DNA of 64,000 bases from contig NZ_FAOZ01000010.1 of assembly GCF_001536285.1 (NCBI RefSeq), positions 1 to 64,000 of the forward strand, given 5' to 3'. Source of the stretch: Parafrankia irregularis (GTDB lineage: Bacteria > Actinomycetota > Actinomycetes > Frankiales > Frankiaceae). The notes beneath the pieces were generated by a model. The model searched no databases. It was not told the origin of the DNA and saw nothing but the letters and a program-made list of their open reading frames with translations. Below are positions 33,007 to 41,065 of the stretch, one piece after another. The translations under genes were made by a program, and so were the position numbers. How positions within the stretch are numbered: the first letter of the stretch is position 1; every line of letters starts with the position of its first letter.

Positions 33007-34812
33007 TCAGGCATGGCCGTCCTCCGCCAGTTCTGGCCGGAAGACGGTCACCTGACCCCCGCCCGTGGCCTTCGCGTGGTACATGGCGAGATCGGCCCGG
33101 TGGAGGAGGGCCTCCGCCGAAACCGTCCCCGCATCCTCCTCCACCGTGACCAGACCGACGCTGGCGTCGACGCGGCACGGGCAGCTCCGCAGTTGGATCG
33201 GAGCGCGCACCGCGCGGGTCAGACGGCGCCCGACCGCCTCCGGATCCCGCGAGTCCGATTCGAGCAGGATCGCGAACTCATCCCCGCCGAGCCGGGCAAC
33301 CGAGTCGTCCGGCCTGACCTGCCCGGCCAGCCGCGCGGCGACGACGCACAGCAGTTCGTCGCCGGCCGCGTGCCCGAACCTGTCGTTGACACCTTTGAAT
33401 CCATCCAGATCGCAGAAGAGGAGCGAGACCCGGTGCGGCCGGAGGCGGCGGTCGGCCAGCGCGCGATTGAGGCGGGCGACGAAGAGCGCGCGGTTCGCGA
33501 GCCCGGTCAGCGGGTCATGGAACGCGAGGTGGTGCAGCTCGTGCTGCTTCCCCTCGAGCTGGGTCAGCAGGTGTGCGTTGTCAGCCATCGTGGTCATCTG
33601 GCGGAGCACGGCGAGCAGGAGCAGGCCCAGCAGCCCCCACAGGGTCAGATCACGATCGAGGCTTCCGCTCACGGGCTGGAGATGGAAGACGGCGAACGCG
33701 CCGCCGACCAGCAGCGGGATGTACGGCAGCACCCCGTGCCACCAGCGGTGACGTGCCGGCGAACGCGCGGCCGCCGTCCCGTCGGCCGAACCTGCCCCCA
33801 CGGCCGCGCGGCCGTCCACCCGGACGGCGGCGGCGGTCTCGACGGCGGCGGTCTCCCAGCGGTCTGGCGGCAGGCGCCCGGTGGCCGGCACAGGCCCGCC
33901 GGGGCGGAGCAGGGCAGCGAGCGCGAGAAGCAGACCACTGCCCCCGAAGCCGAGATCCAGCACCCGCGGGACGTCGGCAAGCCCACGGACACCGGCATAC
34001 ATGTGCGACATGACGGACAGACAGAAGAGCATGATCCCGGATCCGACCAGCACCAGGCCGAGCGGCGACCGCGGCCTGCGGAACGCCGCGGTCAGGATGA
34101 CCAGGACGATGAGCAGGGTCGCGACAGCCGCGACGGCCAGGGTCCCGGGCAGGCCCGGCGACACGGGCGAGTCCAGCGCCCGGTTCAGGATCAGCACCCA
34201 GCAGAGCAACGCCACCGCACCGACGACGATCAGGCCATCCAGAACAGTGATCACGTGCAGCCGCCGGTTCGCCCCGTCGACCCGAGCGCGGGTCGCGTGG
34301 TCGTAGGGCTCGGACGGAAAGCACAGCAGGGCCGCCAGGCCGCACACCGTCGGCGTCAGGGCGAGCAGTGCCAGCGGGGTCATACTGGGCAACGCGGGAC
34401 CGCCGTTGATGACGTCCCGCGCGATCGCCCCTCCCGCCAGCGCGTTCGCCATGATCATCGCGGCGATGAGTAATCGCCAGGCTCGTTCCGCCCCGTGGTT
34501 GCGCAGACCAGCCCACACGCAGGTTCCCACCGCCACCGCCGAGAAGATCGGGCTCGTGAGGCGCGCGAACGCGAGCTCGGTGCGGCCCTCCAGGACCAGC
34601 AGCGGGAGCGCGGAACCAAGCAGGAGCAGCAGGATCACGCCGGCGGCCCGGCGGAACGGACGGTCGGTCTGATCCCACAGGCGGATCACCCATCCCGTGC
34701 GGTGCGGTCGCGCCGACGGAGCCCGCCCGGCGCCCCGGGCAGCCGTGGGAACGACGGACTCGTCCAGGCCGCCGGGAGACTCCTCGGTCCGCTCCGGGAC
34801 GTGGCCCCGCAT
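33007..34812 (-). CDS. Membrane-bound diguanylate cyclase (GGDEF)
   Basis: The product is about 601 residues with roughly ten hydrophobic segments in the first 400 residues as a membrane sensor. A C-terminal GGDEF domain has 'HDPLTGLANRALFVARL', 'SLLFCDLDGFKGVNDRFGH' and the active site 'RLGGDEFAILLES'. The inhibitory I-site RxxD ('RPDD', five residues before GGDEF) is present, so product feedback is likely. No EAL domain is seen. It should make cyclic di-GMP from GTP at the inner membrane. The ATG at 34812 has GGTGGGG upstream. It sits between two copies of a 46-bp sequence from the end of the kinase-fusion gene. Confidence 0.85.
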   Translation of the reverse strand: MRGHVPERTEESPGGLDESVVPTAARGAGRAPSARPHRTGWVIRLWDQTDRPFRRAAGVILLLLLGSALPLLVLEGRTELAFARLTSPIFSAVAVGTCVWAGLRNHGAERAWRLLIAAMIMANALAGGAIARDVINGGPALPSMTPLALLALTPTVCGLAALLCFPSEPYDHATRARVDGANRRLHVITVLDGLIVVGAVALLCWVLILNRALDSPVSPGLPGTLAVAAVATLLIVLVILTAAFRRPRSPLGLVLVGSGIMLFCLSVMSHMYAGVRGLADVPRVLDLGFGGSGLLLALAALLRPGGPVPATGRLPPDRWETAAVETAAAVRVDGRAAVGAGSADGTAAARSPARHRWWHGVLPYIPLLVGGAFAVFHLQPVSGSLDRDLTLWGLLGLLLLAVLRQMTTMADNAHLLTQLEGKQHELHHLAFHDPLTGLANRALFVARLNRALADRRLRPHRVSLLFCDLDGFKGVNDRFGHAAGDELLCVVAARLAGQVRPDDSVARLGGDEFAILLESDSRDPEAVGRRLTRAVRAPIQLRSCPCRVDASVGLVTVEEDAGTVSAEALLHRADLAMYHAKATGGGQVTVFRPELAEDGHA

Positions 34813-34915
34813 GGCCCCACCACCGCCCATGCCGCTGAGATTGCGTCGAACCGAGCGTGTCAACACACGCGGGACATCGCAACTACAGGCCGGCGACCAC
34901 AGCCCGCTGCCGTCG

Positions 34916-37861
34916 TCAGCCGGGCCTGACGCCGAGGTTCGCGACGTCGTACGAGGCGTTGAACCCAAGATTCAGATAGACGTTCGTCAGCCGCTCGCTG
35001 AAGAGGACCTGGGCGCGGCGGTGGACCAGCGGCACGAGGGCCGCGGTCTGCTGCACCAGCTGGTCCACCCTGGCCCAGCTGTCCGCCGCCGCCTCGGGAT
35101 GCTCGGGATCGCTCCTCGCCGCCGCGACGTCGAGGGCGTCGTTGACCGCCCGGTCGTCGAGCTCCGAGATGTTGAAGTTGCCCTGCTGACGGATCTGCCG
35201 GCCGTCGACGATCTGGTGGAAGAAGGCATAGCCGCTCGGCCAGTCCGGGCCCCAGTTGGTCAGCGCGAGCCCGATCCCGGAGGCGCGCACCCGGTCCGGC
35301 GCGCCCAGCGTGTCGTAGAAGTCCCCGGTCGCATAGGTCTTCAGCGTCACCTTGATGCCGATCTTTCCCAGGTCGTCCTGGATCGACTCGGCCGCCTTGA
35401 CGTCAGCGGCGCGGTCAGGCACGGAGAGGGTGGTGGCGAAGCCGTCCGGGTGGCCGCAGGCCGTGAGCTCGTCGCGCGCCCTGTCCAGATCACCGCGCAG
35501 GCCGTCGCTCGGGAAGGCGCTGGAGCCGGTGTAGCCGGCGAGGGCCGGCGGCAGCAGGCCCGCGGCCCCGGTGCCCCCGAACGCGTCATAGCCGCGGAGG
35601 CTGGACTGCCGCGCCCGGTCGACCGCCCAGGCCACCGCACGCCGGCAGTGTTCGTTGTCGAACGGCCGCTGCGTGGTCACGACGGCCAGGTAGTTCAGGT
35701 AGGGCAGCACGGTGACCTCGCTGCGCGCCTTCAGGTCCGGGTGCGCGGCGATCGCAGCGGCGGTCGATGCTCCGACCGAGCCCCCGGAGATGTCGGCGTC
35801 GTAGGCACCACTGATCAGATCGGCGTCGATCTCGTCGGTGGGGACGTCGAACGCGACCGTGATCTGGTCAGGCAGAGCCGCCCGGTTCGGGTCGGTGGCC
35901 GCCACCCACCTCGGATTGCGCACGAAGCTGATCGACTTGGCCGCCGTGTACGACTCGACCTGGTAGGGCCCACTGGAGACCAGCCGCGTCGCGTCGTAGC
36001 CGGAGCCGGCCTCGCTGGTGACAACGTCGGCCCTGGCGGGAATCGGCGCCGTCTGCGGCAGCGTGAGCAGGTAGGGGAAGTCGTCGAACGGCTCACGCAG
36101 GTGGAAGACCAGGGTGGTCTCGTCGGGCGTGTCGATCGAGGTGAACTCCGCCAGAGGCTCGTCGCGCGGCCCCGCGAACTCGGCGGGCAGCTGGCGGAGC
36201 ACCTCGCTGAAGTACCCCGGCGCACCCCGGATGACCAGCGCCTGGTCATAGCCACGGGCGATCGCGTACTTCACGTCCGCCGCCCGGATAACGGAGCCGT
36301 CCTGGAACATCAGGCCGGCACGGATCCGGACCTTCCAGGTGACACCGTCGACCCGCTCGGGCATGGCCGCCGCCAGGTCCGGCACCAGCTCGGTGCCGGC
36401 CGTCCCGGCCTCGGCCCGGTAGGTGAGCAGCGTTCGGGAGACCAGCCGCTGCATCGACCAGCAGGGGGCCAGGTAGGTCAGGCCCGGATCCCAGGAGTCA
36501 CAGTCGCCGCCGCTCGCGACCAGCTTCAGGGTTCCGCCGCTTTTCCCCGACGGCTGCCACGGCGAAGGCGCCGCCGTGGCCGTCGCCGCCTCGTCCCCGG
36601 CGAGCCGCCGCCCGGAGGAGTCGTCCGGCCAGCTGAACAGCAGTCCGAGCCCTGTACCCACGACGACGATGACCGCGGTCGCCAGCGCGACCGCCCGGCG
36701 GCGATCGAGGCGGCCGAGACCGCGCGATCCCCGGTACGGCGGGCCGATCGCGATCCCGGAACCACGTGAACCGGGCACGGCACCCGCCGGCGGGACCGGT
36801 GGCGTCCAGGCGGGTACGCCCGGTGGTGGCGGCGGGGTCGGCGCGGTCGACGCAGTCAGCGGCGGCTGGGCAGGCGGCGGCTGGGCAGGCGGCGGCGAAG
36901 CCGGCCACTGCGCGGCTGTCGGCGGGAACGCCGTCGGTGGGAGTGCTGGGGGCGGGGCCGCTCGTGCGGCATCGACGACCTCGTCGTCGAGGCGGACGGG
37001 GATACCGCAGTCCGCCAGCCAGCCCGGCCCGAAGGTCTGCGCCGCCGCCGCGGCCAGATCGAGCGCGAACGCGCGGGCGGACGGGTGCCGCTGCGCCGGG
37101 TCCTTCGCCAGCGCGCGCAGCACGACACCCGCCACCGGTGCCGGGGCCTCGACCAGCGGCGCGGGACGTCCCGCCAGATGCCAGTGCACCAGCGCGCCGG
37201 GGGTGGTCACCGGGCCCGACGGCCGGTGCCGCTCGAACAGCTCGTACAGCGTCACGCCGAGCGCGTACAGATCGGTGGCCGGGCCGAGCCCGCCCTCGCC
37301 GAACTGCTCCGGCGCCATGTAGGGCAGGGTCCCGACCAGCCCGGACGTCACCGAGGTCGATTCGGTGACGATCTTGGCGATGCCGAAGTCGGCGACCTTC
37401 ACCAGCGAGCTGCCGGTGAACAGGATGTTCGCCGGTTTGATGTCGCGGTGCAGCACGCCGACCTGGTGCGCGGCACCGAGCGCCTCGGCCACGCACAGGC
37501 CGACCGCGCACGCCTGCCGCGGGCTGGTGGCGCGCAGCCGCTGGGAGAGGCTGCCGCCGGTGAGCTGCTCCATCACGATGATCCGCAGGTCGTCGTGTTC
37601 GAGGTAGTCGTAGATCGCGACGACGTGCGGGTGGTCGAGCCGCGCGAGCACCCGGGCCTCGGCCGCGAACCTCCGGCGCACCTCGACGTCGGCGTCGCTG
37701 TCGGTGCCGCCGTCGACGTCCAGGATCTTGATGGCGACGCTGCGCCCCAGCTGGCGGTGCCGGCCGGACAGCACGACACCGAACCCGCCCTGCCCGAGCG
37801 GCCCCCCGATCTCGTAGCCGGGCAGGGCCCGCTCGACGCTTTCGCGACGAGGTGGGCGCAT
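34916..37861 (-). CDS. Ser/Thr protein kinase fused to an extracellular family-5 solute-binding domain
   Basis: This is a 981-residue protein. Residues 15-280 form a Hanks-type kinase: glycine loop 'GPLGQGGFGVV', Lys45 in 'VAIKIL', 'HRDIKPANIL' (Asp140), 'DFG' 158-160 and 'MAPEQF'. A Pro-rich linker (300-365) and one transmembrane helix (about 389-410) follow. Residues 443-981 resemble periplasmic oligopeptide/nickel-binding proteins (SBP_bac_5: 'DPGLTYLAPC', 'WKVRIRAGLMFQDGS', 'ADVKYAIARGYD', 'FDNEHCRRAVAWAVDR'). This places a ligand-binding domain outside and the kinase inside. No ABC transporter partner is adjacent. The start has AAGG close upstream. Likely role: sensing a peptide-like or metal-chelate ligand and phosphorylating unknown targets. 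Confidence 0.85.
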   Translation of the reverse strand: MRPPRRESVERALPGYEIGGPLGQGGFGVVLSGRHRQLGRSVAIKILDVDGGTDSDADVEVRRRFAAEARVLARLDHPHVVAIYDYLEHDDLRIIVMEQLTGGSLSQRLRATSPRQACAVGLCVAEALGAAHQVGVLHRDIKPANILFTGSSLVKVADFGIAKIVTESTSVTSGLVGTLPYMAPEQFGEGGLGPATDLYALGVTLYELFERHRPSGPVTTPGALVHWHLAGRPAPLVEAPAPVAGVVLRALAKDPAQRHPSARAFALDLAAAAAQTFGPGWLADCGIPVRLDDEVVDAARAAPPPALPPTAFPPTAAQWPASPPPAQPPPAQPPLTASTAPTPPPPPGVPAWTPPVPPAGAVPGSRGSGIAIGPPYRGSRGLGRLDRRRAVALATAVIVVVGTGLGLLFSWPDDSSGRRLAGDEAATATAAPSPWQPSGKSGGTLKLVASGGDCDSWDPGLTYLAPCWSMQRLVSRTLLTYRAEAGTAGTELVPDLAAAMPERVDGVTWKVRIRAGLMFQDGSVIRAADVKYAIARGYDQALVIRGAPGYFSEVLRQLPAEFAGPRDEPLAEFTSIDTPDETTLVFHLREPFDDFPYLLTLPQTAPIPARADVVTSEAGSGYDATRLVSSGPYQVESYTAAKSISFVRNPRWVAATDPNRAALPDQITVAFDVPTDEIDADLISGAYDADISGGSVGASTAAAIAAHPDLKARSEVTVLPYLNYLAVVTTQRPFDNEHCRRAVAWAVDRARQSSLRGYDAFGGTGAAGLLPPALAGYTGSSAFPSDGLRGDLDRARDELTACGHPDGFATTLSVPDRAADVKAAESIQDDLGKIGIKVTLKTYATGDFYDTLGAPDRVRASGIGLALTNWGPDWPSGYAFFHQIVDGRQIRQQGNFNISELDDRAVNDALDVAAARSDPEHPEAAADSWARVDQLVQQTAALVPLVHRRAQVLFSERLTNVYLNLGFNASYDVANLGVRPG

Positions 37862-37867
37862 ATTGCC

Positions 37868-38545
37868 TTATTCTGCGCCCTTTCCTGCCAGCGGTGTGGC
37901 CGGCGGGGTCACGGCCCCGAAACCGCCGAGGCAGAACGCCCAGACCCGGGCGGCGACCTCGGCGGCGGATTCCTTGCGCGTCGCGAACGCGTAGTGATGG
38001 AAGACCGCCCTGACCAGCAGGTTGACCAGCTCACCGGTCTGCGCGGTGTCGATCGGGCCGATGAGGCCGACGGCCTGGGCGGCCTCCAGCTCACCAGCCA
38101 CGAGATCGGCGAACGGGCGGGTCGCGTGGTCGACCTCGTCCGGGTAGAGCTGGTACAGCCGCCAGTGCTCGGCGGTGATGAACCGCGCACCGCGCTGCGC
38201 GCCGTCCTCGCTGCCGAGCGAGTGCAGGGCGGCCTCCATGTACCTCCGCAGGCGGGCGAGCGGGTCCGGCTCGCCGGCCGCGGACTCCTGGTAGTGCACC
38301 ACCTGCCCGCTGATGACGTCCTCGATGACGGCGAGCATGAGCTGGTCCTTGCCGGGGAAATGCCGGTAGAACGTCTGCATCGCGATACCGGCCTCCTTCA
38401 CGAGGTCCTGCGTCGTGAAGGAGGAACCCCGGCTGGCGATCAGCCGCTTCGCGGCATCGACGATCACCGTCATCTGCTGCACGCTGCGCGACCGGGACCG
38501 CTGGACCAGCGGCGACCGGTCCGCGGCACGATCGGCCCAGGACAC
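37868..38545 (-). CDS. TetR-family regulator
   Basis: This 225-residue protein has a TetR HTH ('VDAAKRLIASRGSSFTTQDL', 'KEAGIAMQTFYRHFPGKDQL') and a helical ligand-binding domain. The GTG at 38545 is preceded by GGAG. It lies 20 bp after the deazaflavin-type reductase at the end of the leftward P450/aldehyde-dehydrogenase operon, and 6 bp before the kinase-fusion gene. It could control the catabolic operon, with an acyl-CoA or acid as inducer. Confidence 0.85.
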   Translation of the reverse strand: MSWADRAADRSPLVQRSRSRSVQQMTVIVDAAKRLIASRGSSFTTQDLVKEAGIAMQTFYRHFPGKDQLMLAVIEDVISGQVVHYQESAAGEPDPLARLRRYMEAALHSLGSEDGAQRGARFITAEHWRLYQLYPDEVDHATRPFADLVAGELEAAQAVGLIGPIDTAQTGELVNLLVRAVFHHYAFATRKESAAEVAARVWAFCLGGFGAVTPPATPLAGKGAE

Positions 38546-38565
38546 CCCTCCGACGGTACCGGGGG

Positions 38566-39000
38566 TTACGCGGGCGTCAGCACCACCACGGGTATCGGTC
38601 TCGCTGTCCTGGCCTGGTAGGCGTCGTAGTTCGGCCAGACCCCGGTCATGATCTTCCACAGTCGAGGCTTCTCCTCGTCGGAGGCCGTCCGCGCGACCAC
38701 CGACAGATGTTCGGCACGGACCTGGATATTCGCCGCCGCCTGATCGGTGAGGTTCAGATACCACTGCGGGGCGGCGGGCGCGCCGCCTTTCGAGGCCACC
38801 ACAAGGTAGTCCGCCCCGTCCCGCCCGAAGATCAGCGCGGATGTGCGCGGCTGGCCGGATCGGCGGCCGACGGTGGTGAGCAACAGGGTGGGCACGCCGT
38901 TCCACTCGTACCCCACCTCCCCGCCGGTCTCGCGATAGCGCGCCACATGCTCCGCGCCGACGAGAGCCAGATCCGGCGGCCGGTAGCCGGCTTCACTCAT
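38566..39000 (-). CDS. Deazaflavin-dependent nitroreductase (DDN-type split beta-barrel)
   Basis: The 144-residue protein has 'TLLLTTVGRRSGQPRTSALIF', 'YLVVASKGGAPAAPQWYLNL' and 'VVVLTPA', typical of the actinobacterial DDN/F420-binding family (Rv3547-like). It probably binds F420H2 or another flavin and reduces a quinone or oxidised intermediate. Its ATG overlaps the stop of the P450 gene (TCATGA on the sense strand), so the two are coupled. Confidence 0.8.
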   Translation of the reverse strand: MSEAGYRPPDLALVGAEHVARYRETGGEVGYEWNGVPTLLLTTVGRRSGQPRTSALIFGRDGADYLVVASKGGAPAAPQWYLNLTDQAAANIQVRAEHLSVVARTASDEEKPRLWKIMTGVWPNYDAYQARTARPIPVVVLTPA

Positions 39001-40274
39001 CAGGAACCTCCGAAGACGACGGGGATCTCGGTCGCGCCGCGCTCGTACATGCCGATCAGGCGCGGCGGGGCGGCCAGCGGGTCGAGGCGCAGGTTCGGCA
39101 GCCGGTCGAGCAGCGCGCCGATACCGACGCTGATCTCGGCCCGGGCGACGTGCATGCCCAGGCAGATATGCGGCCCGCCGCCGAAGCCGAGGGAGCGCTT
39201 CATGGGGCGGAAGATGTCGAACTCGTCGGGGTGCTCCCAGCGGGCCGGGTCGCGGTTCGCCGCGCCCAGGCACAGGTGCACCAGGGCACCGCGCGGGATC
39301 CGCTGCCCGGCGAGCTCGACGTCCCGGGTGGCGAAACGGGAGAACATCGGGTCGGTGGGCGACCAGCGCAACGACTCCTCCACGGCCGGACGCAGCAGGG
39401 AGCGGTCCGCGCGGACGGCGCCGAGAAGTTCCGGCCGGTTCAGCAGGGCGGTCAGGGTGATGCCCATCTGCTTCCAGGTGGTACCGGAGCCGGCGAGCAG
39501 CAGCAGGACGGCGAACGTGTAGATCTCGGTGTCGGACAGGCGGTGCCGCGCCCCGTCCTCGTCGGTGATCTCCGCCGCGACCAGGGTGCTGATGAGATCG
39601 TCCTGGGGCTGCTCGCGCCGCGCCGCGACGATCGGGGCGAGCGCGCGAATCACCTGCGGCGGGTCGGTGAGCACCTCGCGGATGTGCAGCGCCTCCTCGA
39701 CGGGCACCCCGAAGCTGCTGGTGATCGTCAGTACCGGGATCGCCGCGCAGAAGTCGACGTTCAGCTCCGCTGAGCCGTTGTCGGCGAACCGGTCGATGAG
39801 CGCGTGCACCGTCTCCTCGATCCAGTTCGTGATCCACCAGCCGGCACGGGCCGGGACGAACGACGGTTGGACGAGGGCACGGTACCGGCGGTGCTGGGCG
39901 CCGCCCATCGACAGCATGCTGCTGGCGGTGCCGATCCCCCCTCCGGTCGGGTCGACGGCTTCCGGCGACGAGGCGAAGGTCTCGCTGTCGCGGAAGACCC
40001 GGTCGCACTCGTCGAACGAGAAGACCGAGAAATGCGGTCGGTCCGGGTAGGGCAGGCCCTGGAACATCGCCGGGCGGGAGTACCCGGTCAGCTCGTGGAC
40101 GGTGCCCTCGTGCACCGGCCCCCGCTCCCGCAGCTCCCGCCAGACCGGGTTGGGGTCCTCCTCGTAGTCGCCGCCGCTGCGCACGTTGTAGCTGCTGCGC
40201 AGGTCGAACAGCGTGCGGATGCGGTCGGGGTCGAGCACCTGGCCCATGTCACTCACCGCGGGCACCTCAGTCAC
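39000..40274 (-). CDS. Cytochrome P450 with atypical I-helix
   Basis: The product is about 424 residues. The haem-binding loop is 'FGGGPHICLGMHVARAE' and ExxR is 'EESLRW'. The I-helix oxygen-activation motif reads 'LAGSGTTWKQMG', where the usual acidic residue before Thr-Thr is Gly. That is unusual and may alter proton delivery. The GTG at 40274 overlaps the SDR stop (GTGA); several later in-frame GTG/ATG codons are possible. It is a soluble bacterial class and probably hydroxylates the hydrophobic substrate of this operon. Confidence 0.85.
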   Translation of the reverse strand: MTEVPAVSDMGQVLDPDRIRTLFDLRSSYNVRSGGDYEEDPNPVWRELRERGPVHEGTVHELTGYSRPAMFQGLPYPDRPHFSVFSFDECDRVFRDSETFASSPEAVDPTGGGIGTASSMLSMGGAQHRRYRALVQPSFVPARAGWWITNWIEETVHALIDRFADNGSAELNVDFCAAIPVLTITSSFGVPVEEALHIREVLTDPPQVIRALAPIVAARREQPQDDLISTLVAAEITDEDGARHRLSDTEIYTFAVLLLLAGSGTTWKQMGITLTALLNRPELLGAVRADRSLLRPAVEESLRWSPTDPMFSRFATRDVELAGQRIPRGALVHLCLGAANRDPARWEHPDEFDIFRPMKRSLGFGGGPHICLGMHVARAEISVGIGALLDRLPNLRLDPLAAPPRLIGMYERGATEIPVVFGGS

Positions 40275-41065
40275 CTCGCCACGTATCCGCCGTCGATCGG
40301 GACGAGCACCCCGGTGATGTTGGCGGCCCGGTCGGACACCAGGAAGGCCGCGGCCTCGGCGCAGTCCTCGGCGGTGATCGGACGTCCCAGGGGATGCGTG
40401 GCCCCGACCTGGCGAGCAGCGGCGGCCGTGGTCTGGGCGTCGCCGCCGAGACCACCGGCGGCCATGAAGCCGGTGTAGGGCATGCCGGCCGGGCAGATGG
40501 CGTTCGCCCGGATCCCGAACGGCGCGCCCTCGATGGCGACGGCCCGCGTGAGCTGGTGCACCCCGCCCTTGGTCGCGCCGTACACCGAGCCGCCCCAGCC
40601 GACGAGGCCGGCGACCGAGCCGGTGTTGAGGATGACCCCGCCGCCGCCCTGGCTCTTGAACCGGATCACGGCGTGCCTGCACCCGAGGAAGACCCCGCGC
40701 AGGTTGACCGCCACCAGGCGCTCGAAGTCCTCGACCGTGTGGTCCTCCAGCCTGGCCCCGAGCCGCGGGGTCGGGATCCCGGCGTTGTTGAACACGACGT
40801 CGAGCGCACCGAACCTCTCCGCAGCGAGGTCAAGGGCGCGGACGACGTCCTCCTCCACGGAGACGTCGCAGCGCACCGGCTCGGCGCGGCCGTCGGCACC
40901 GGCCTTCTCGATCTCGCGAACGGTCTCCTCGGCGCCGTCGAGGCTGATGTCGGCGCACACCACGCGGGCACCCTCGGCAGCGAAGCGCAGGGCGGATGCC
41001 CGCCCCACCCCCGAGCCCGCGCCGGTGACCACGGCGACCTTCCCGTCGAGCAGCAGGCCCGTCAC
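40271..41065 (-). CDS. Short-chain dehydrogenase/reductase
   Basis: The 264-residue classical SDR has 'VVTGAGSGVGRASALRFA', 'NNAGIP', catalytic 'YGATKGG' and a C-terminal 'GVLVPIDGGYVAR'. An Asp in 'VVCADIS' at the end of beta-2 suggests NAD(H) over NADP(H). It likely oxidises a hydroxyl or reduces a ketone formed by the adjacent P450 or aldolase candidate. It lies 32 bp after the amidohydrolase gene and overlaps the P450 start. Confidence 0.85.
   Translation of the reverse strand: MTGLLLDGKVAVVTGAGSGVGRASALRFAAEGARVVCADISLDGAEETVREIEKAGADGRAEPVRCDVSVEEDVVRALDLAAERFGALDVVFNNAGIPTPRLGARLEDHTVEDFERLVAVNLRGVFLGCRHAVIRFKSQGGGGVILNTGSVAGLVGWGGSVYGATKGGVHQLTRAVAIEGAPFGIRANAICPAGMPYTGFMAAGGLGGDAQTTAAAARQVGATHPLGRPITAEDCAEAAAFLVSDRAANITGVLVPIDGGYVAR

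Follow-up and report, generated by a model that had tools for sequence, protein, structure and literature searches.

Introduction

Single polypeptides that combine a Ser/Thr kinase with a solute-binding protein (SBP) were in print by 2018, when MSMEG_1200 and "a further 260 SBP kinases" in InterPro were noted (PMC6069109, excerpts). MSMEG_1200, or StpK7, was studied as a kinase, according to the available portion of a 2026 review (PMC13355554). An extracellular SBP also controls a Ser/Thr kinase in the GlnH-GlnX-PknG system (PMC6069109 and PMC9769921, excerpts), where GlnX connects the SBP, GlnH, with PknG (PMC6069109, excerpts). For siderophore clusters only, the table of PMC13293324, in the form available to us, holds five SBP_bac_3 proteins with Pkinase and none for SBP_bac_5. 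That paper was the only one returned by a text search of the literature for SBP_bac_5 with Pkinase, a search that covered few subscription journals.

Here we describe a gene from Parafrankia irregularis, found in a stretch of 64,000 nucleotides (the window), whose product carries a kinase and an SBP domain in one chain with a helix between them, and which fits the term "SBP kinase" as used in the excerpts of PMC6069109. An earlier note on this DNA knew of no characterized fusion of this kind. This is too strong, because the 2018 paper had already drawn attention to kinase-SBP single polypeptides, MSMEG_1200 being its example (PMC6069109, excerpts). Kinase-SBP fusions are a known class, and what is new is the family-5 SBP on a kinase; since the StpK7/MSMEG_1200 family carries a family-3 SBP, we regard the window protein as a variant within that class.

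The window protein resembles StpK7 in having an N-terminal Hanks kinase and a C-terminal solute-binding domain in one polypeptide. However, the SBP is of family 3 in StpK7 and of family 5 here, and StpK7 forms part of a BREX-like island (PMC13355554, available portion), whereas the scanned neighbors of the window gene were not of that kind. Against NF052427, the NCBIfam entry for the StpK7 family (cut-off 900), which L345, a protein with Pkinase and SBP_bac_3, exceeded, the window protein scored 145.2 bits, through its kinase part only. GlnH-GlnX-PknG consists of three proteins, with an SBP_bac_3 domain and a soluble kinase, whereas here a single chain carries SBP_bac_5. PknB/Stk1 shares the order of kinase, helix and C-terminal sensor, and PknB was the best-scoring match of the window kinase among kinases in the PDB, but the window protein has no PASTA domain and scored 209.8 bits against the PASTA kinase entry NF033483, below its cut-off of 450.

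Results

The gene runs on the minus strand from an ATG at 37861 to a stop at 34916, and the single 981-residue reading frame lies exactly where the earlier note had placed it (Table 1). Pfam assigned Pkinase to residues 16-215 (E 8.8e-46) and SBP_bac_5 to residues 491-888 (E 1.5e-51), the latter at 176.1 bits against a gathering threshold of 32.4 and over positions 1-364 of a 368-position profile. There was no Pfam match at E <= 0.01 to PASTA, the domain that the earlier note named as typical of classical bacterial receptor kinases. The kinase motifs are GQGGFGVV at residue 23, K45, HRDIKPAN at 138, DFG at 158 and APE at 183, so that the G-loop, catalytic Lys, HRD, DFG and APE expected of the Hanks type are all found. 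By fold and motifs this is a Hanks-type Ser/Thr kinase, with predicted activity. Pfam, the motif check and the helix scan agreed on the proposed build of a complete Hanks kinase, one helix and a full-length family-5 SBP.

Table 1. Features of the fusion gene and its immediate neighbors (positions in the window)
Feature	Coordinates	Strand	Basis
Receptor Ser/Thr kinase with family-5 SBP ectodomain, whole gene, 981 residues	34916..37861	-	ORF, Pfam, EUN1f orthologue
Hanks kinase domain, residues ~16-275, with catalytic motifs	37037..37816	-	Pfam, motif check, PknB matches in PDB
Pro/Ala-rich linker, predicted cytoplasmic, residues ~297-386, 33% Pro	36704..36973	-	Composition
Lone transmembrane helix, residues 391-409, charges biased to the kinase side	36635..36691	-	Hydrophobicity, K/R counts
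Family-5 solute-binding domain, predicted extracytoplasmic, residues 439-981, OppA2 clade	34919..36547	-	Pfam, PDB 2wok E 1.4e-101, tree with 2wok
Asp873 codon	35243..35245	-	Alignment with 16 free SBPs
TetR-family regulator ORF, directly upstream, ending 6 bases ahead of the kinase ATG	37868..38905	-	ORF list, Pfam
Membrane GGDEF (diguanylate cyclase) ORF, downstream	33007..34968	-	ORF list, Pfam

Only one hydrophobic helix was found in the protein (residues 391-409). Seven K/R residues lie in the 25 positions before it and two in the 25 after it, and an excess on the kinase side was also present in all of the other fusion genes described below (7/7). This bias predicts that the kinase is cytoplasmic and the SBP domain outside. 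No lipobox was found at the start of the SBP domain or near the helix, and the anchor is the helix instead. Third-position G+C was 0.80-0.96 across nine 100-codon blocks covering residues 1-900. An AlphaFold model of the ectodomain, made with four sequences as input, had a mean pLDDT of only 42.6. A promoter and terminator scan of 34700-38600 found nothing.

A protein from Parafrankia sp. EUN1f was 88% identical to the window protein over residues 1-981. The surrounding genes (epimerase, GGDEF, TetR, F420-type reductase, P450 and SDR) have the same arrangement in EUN1f, with 92-97% protein identity. The TetR gene probably starts later than its open reading frame, and the GGDEF gene probably starts near 34815, the EUN1f match beginning at its residue 52; co-transcription of the TetR, kinase fusion and GGDEF genes is possible. 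Among the Parafrankia compared, a close orthologue of the GGDEF gene (33007-34968) was found only in EUN1f (95%); relatives in four others were 35-49% identical over nearly the full length, and more so over the GGDEF domain alone. The upstream block at 37868-41065 (TetR, F420H2-type reductase, P450, SDR), also syntenic in EUN1f, looks catabolic.

The ectodomain was compared with known structures. Residues 436-978 aligned with OppA2, a protein from the clavulanic acid cluster (PDB 2wok), at E 1.2e-100 when the whole protein was the query, and with the ectodomain alone 2wok was matched at E 1.4e-101, the next PDB match being at 6.8e-33. The window ectodomain and 2wok fell within one 26-row clade (SH-aLRT 100), where 2wok was nearer other rows. 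The tree gave no support for a particularly close link between the window ectodomain and OppA2: 2wok did not stand next to the Parafrankia rows, and its grouping with the two of them was neither recovered nor rejected (p-AU 0.153). While the whole ectodomain thus aligns with OppA2 (2wok/2wol/2wop), the likeness is confined to the SBP half, since the window protein is fused to a kinase and helix and has no lipobox. Free relatives of the OppA2 clade in other Frankiaceae genera were 37-44% identical, and all five of those inspected have an LAAC lipobox.

Thirty positions were invariant across the 24 rows of the alignment, whether free SBPs or fusions. Asp873, which we take to be the counterpart of the OppA residue Asp419 that holds the peptide N-terminus, did not vary among the 16 aligned free SBPs, of which 2wok is one, and it is kept in the window protein and in EUN1f. 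Of the six fusions outside Parafrankia, two retained it (group A of the genus g243, 2/2) and four had Gly (group B of g243, 3/3, and the fusion of genome G166), which implies that receptors of this build need not bind in the ancestral mode. In the group B genes (L182:11684-14923, L183:5036-8278 and L184:5896-9084), the Gly at this pocket-region Asp suggests a changed ligand.

The distribution of such fusions was surveyed with the SBP half as query in 35 genomes of the Frankiaceae (the order sample being the same 35) and 396 genomes of the phylum, and with the SBP of G166 in 393 genomes of the class. In the phylum and class samples the best three candidates per genome were taken, with cuts at E 1e-30 and 1e-50, so that fusions can have escaped. 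Rows with an open frame of more than 850 residues were checked for an in-frame kinase, and a fusion was confirmed when both halves matched in one frame. Seven genes in 5 of the 35 Frankiaceae genomes passed: one each in the window's genome and EUN1f, and five in three genomes of g243 (two in G422, two in G427, one in G425). The conjecture of the earlier note that such fusions may exist in other Frankia-like genomes was thereby borne out. The g243 genes were identified by their matches to both halves. G166, a member of another family (f3), has one fusion gene, with Pkinase and SBP_bac_5 by Pfam. Among the best three candidates per genome in the phylum sample, fusions were found only in the window's genome (G000) and G166.

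Another 24 distinct stop-to-stop frames (31 rows) of more than 850 residues contained the SBP and, with two kinase queries at E <= 1e-4, no kinase. Their length appears to reflect the extension of open frames in G+C-rich DNA, and frame length alone was therefore not counted as fusion. A row from G343, given as 993 residues in the search listing, had an open frame of 614 residues and no kinase, also in the larger surrounding stretch. Two g243 loci hold three-kinase arrays: at L182:4743-14923 two SBP_bac_5 fusions flank a kinase without further Pfam domain, and at L184:5896-13054 one fusion adjoins two kinases.

In a careful tree of SBPs (44 rows), the starred branches cannot be reconciled with fewer than three changes of the fused state. 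A single origin was rejected for the SBP halves, both for the seven from Frankiaceae (p-AU 0.006) and for all eight (p-AU 1.15e-06); for the seven kinase halves, rejection of a common clade was narrowly missed (p-AU 0.058). In a kinase tree of 56 rows, the window kinase belonged to a starred set of 13 rows (95/87), the others of which, EUN1f aside, were NHL-propeller kinases in 10 of 11 cases; the NHL, WD40 and "other" labels come from a crude pattern, some "other" rows being NHL or WD40 by Pfam, and carry low weight. The g243 fusion kinases grouped with other kinases from the tandem loci in which they lie (99/98). The five g243 genes lay on one side of a weak branch (50/94) in the careful SBP tree and not in two quick trees, one of which included four of the five. 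We favor at least three separate fusions: one in Parafrankia, one or two in g243 and one in the lineage of G166; for the separateness of the Parafrankia and g243 captures the trees provide moderate evidence.

Evolutionary rates were estimated per segment between the window gene and EUN1f by the Nei-Gojobori method. Omega was lowest in the kinase (0.18), followed by the linker (0.37) and the ectodomain (0.47). In two other fusion pairs, the corresponding values were 0.19 and 0.20 for the kinase and 0.30 and 0.33 for the ectodomain; free SBPs, compared in three pairs, gave 0.17-0.38. Four neighboring genes (TetR, SDR, GGDEF and epimerase) had omega values of 0.08-0.34 and dN values of 0.012-0.029, below the dN of 0.064 for the ectodomain. 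Within the ectodomain, two 60-codon blocks around residues 841-960 reached 1.0-1.4, on few changes, and no inner branch in the careful SBP tree was longer than the window stem (1.07). The ectodomain is constrained overall yet fast-changing, and this rate, together with the blocks at 1.0-1.4 and the long stem, makes a change or loss of ligand conceivable. For the helix and stalk (36548-36703) omega was 1.19, amino acid changes outpacing silent ones, over only 52 codons.

Discussion

On the evidence of domain matches, trees and charge bias, we consider it likely that the window protein is a single-pass receptor Ser/Thr kinase whose ectodomain was taken from an oligopeptide ABC binding protein of the OppA2-containing clade. 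A kinase-linker-helix module would have replaced the lipoprotein signal of the ancestral SBP. Homology and Asp873 point to a small peptide or an amino compound as the putative extracellular ligand of the SBP half, and the earlier note's proposal that a transported ligand is sensed directly is plausible. In PknB, dimerization or clustering leads kinase domains to phosphorylate one another in trans. By analogy, ligand-dependent dimerization or clustering of the receptor could allow its kinase domains to do the same, after which the kinase would phosphorylate cytoplasmic targets. Because the linker of about 90 residues is Pro-rich and probably disordered, such proximity-driven trans-phosphorylation seems likelier than a rigid push through the membrane.

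The SBP half might instead serve an ABC transporter encoded elsewhere, with the kinase half reporting or regulating uptake. Family-5 SBPs act with permeases, and in some ABC systems the SBP gene lies apart from the permease gene. The sole free relative whose neighbors were checked, in G423, is part of an opp operon, with a BPD_transp_1 permease gene on either side and two oligo_HPY ABC ATPase genes next to it. When the five proteins of that operon were used as tblastn queries (E <= 1e-3), they matched in the 64-kb window only the SBP half itself and ABC-ATPases at 50.6-52.1 kb. The ATPases could be counted in favor of a transporter, but the window yielded no such permease, which, over that distance, distinguishes the locus from an oligopeptide ABC transporter and agrees with the note's claim of sensing without a transporter. 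Nor were any of the six EUN1f-syntenic neighbors transporter genes by Pfam. At E <= 1e-45, no OppA2-like SBP was found in four fusion-less Parafrankia genomes, or in the window's genome other than the fusion, although EUN1f has one further kinase-less relative (L187, 35% identity, E 2.5e-61). A role in uptake therefore appears very unlikely to us.

A docking function, in which the ectodomain contacts proteins or the cell wall and has lost small-ligand binding, would suit its relaxed evolution, its long stem branch and the loss of Asp873 from group B and the G166 fusion. However, Asp873 is kept in the window protein, 30 positions are invariant in free and fused rows alike, and an omega of 0.47 denotes continued constraint, so that we regard docking as unlikely. 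An artefact, whether an assembly join or a frameshift between two adjacent genes, can be dismissed with near certainty: the full-length EUN1f orthologue comes from an independent assembly and is 88% identical across the join, which settles a check that the earlier note had itself named, and the same architecture recurs in three genomes of another genus and in G166. Nor does chance account for the fusion.

If the window protein is, as we favor, a receptor with a full transport-type SBP as sensor, its soluble ectodomain could be screened for ligands, and a match would give the stimulus directly. The free relatives offer natural controls for following what happens to a binding site after its protein ceases to serve transport. 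That such fusions seem to have arisen repeatedly and independently suggests that, in these genomes, transport proteins are readily converted into receptors during evolution. A broader and rather improbable reading is that the Frankiaceae possess a plug-in platform, in which transporter SBPs are captured again and again by one expanded kinase-linker-helix module. It would mean that SBP_bac_5 was captured at least twice in Frankiaceae and once more in another actinomycete family, and a TAXI-type SBP on another paralogue of the window's genome. As part of this reading, since the OppA2 clade includes an antibiotic-pathway SBP, the Parafrankia receptor may sense a peptide-like metabolite made by neighbors or a plant host rather than food peptides.

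Searched with the window protein, the window's genome gave 70 matches; 67 involved the kinase half alone, and some were fragments of a single gene. In the stretches sampled there were 66 kinase frames, of which 19 received full Pfam scans and 41 more were scanned in their tails, with six left out. The 19 paralogues (including the L203 and L213 frames, cut at the stretch end) carried WD40 (7), NHL (6), TIR (3), TPR (2) or no further domain (1). Among the best 25 of 60 families in the 41 tails, the commonest were PASTA (5), GGDEF, AAA_16 and GAF (4 each) and WD40 (3); a lone additional SBP may lie among the remaining families. One paralogue outside the window (L203:2-2791, in G000:C34:85000-90500) has TIR, Ser/Thr kinase, membrane helix and NMT1_3 in one frame that is open at the left; NMT1_3, which we take to be a TAXI-type SBP, would be a second transport-type SBP on the same kinase module. 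Two further paralogues (L211:577-3024 and L206:79-3078) have a kinase, TIR, a helix and a short Cys-containing tail.
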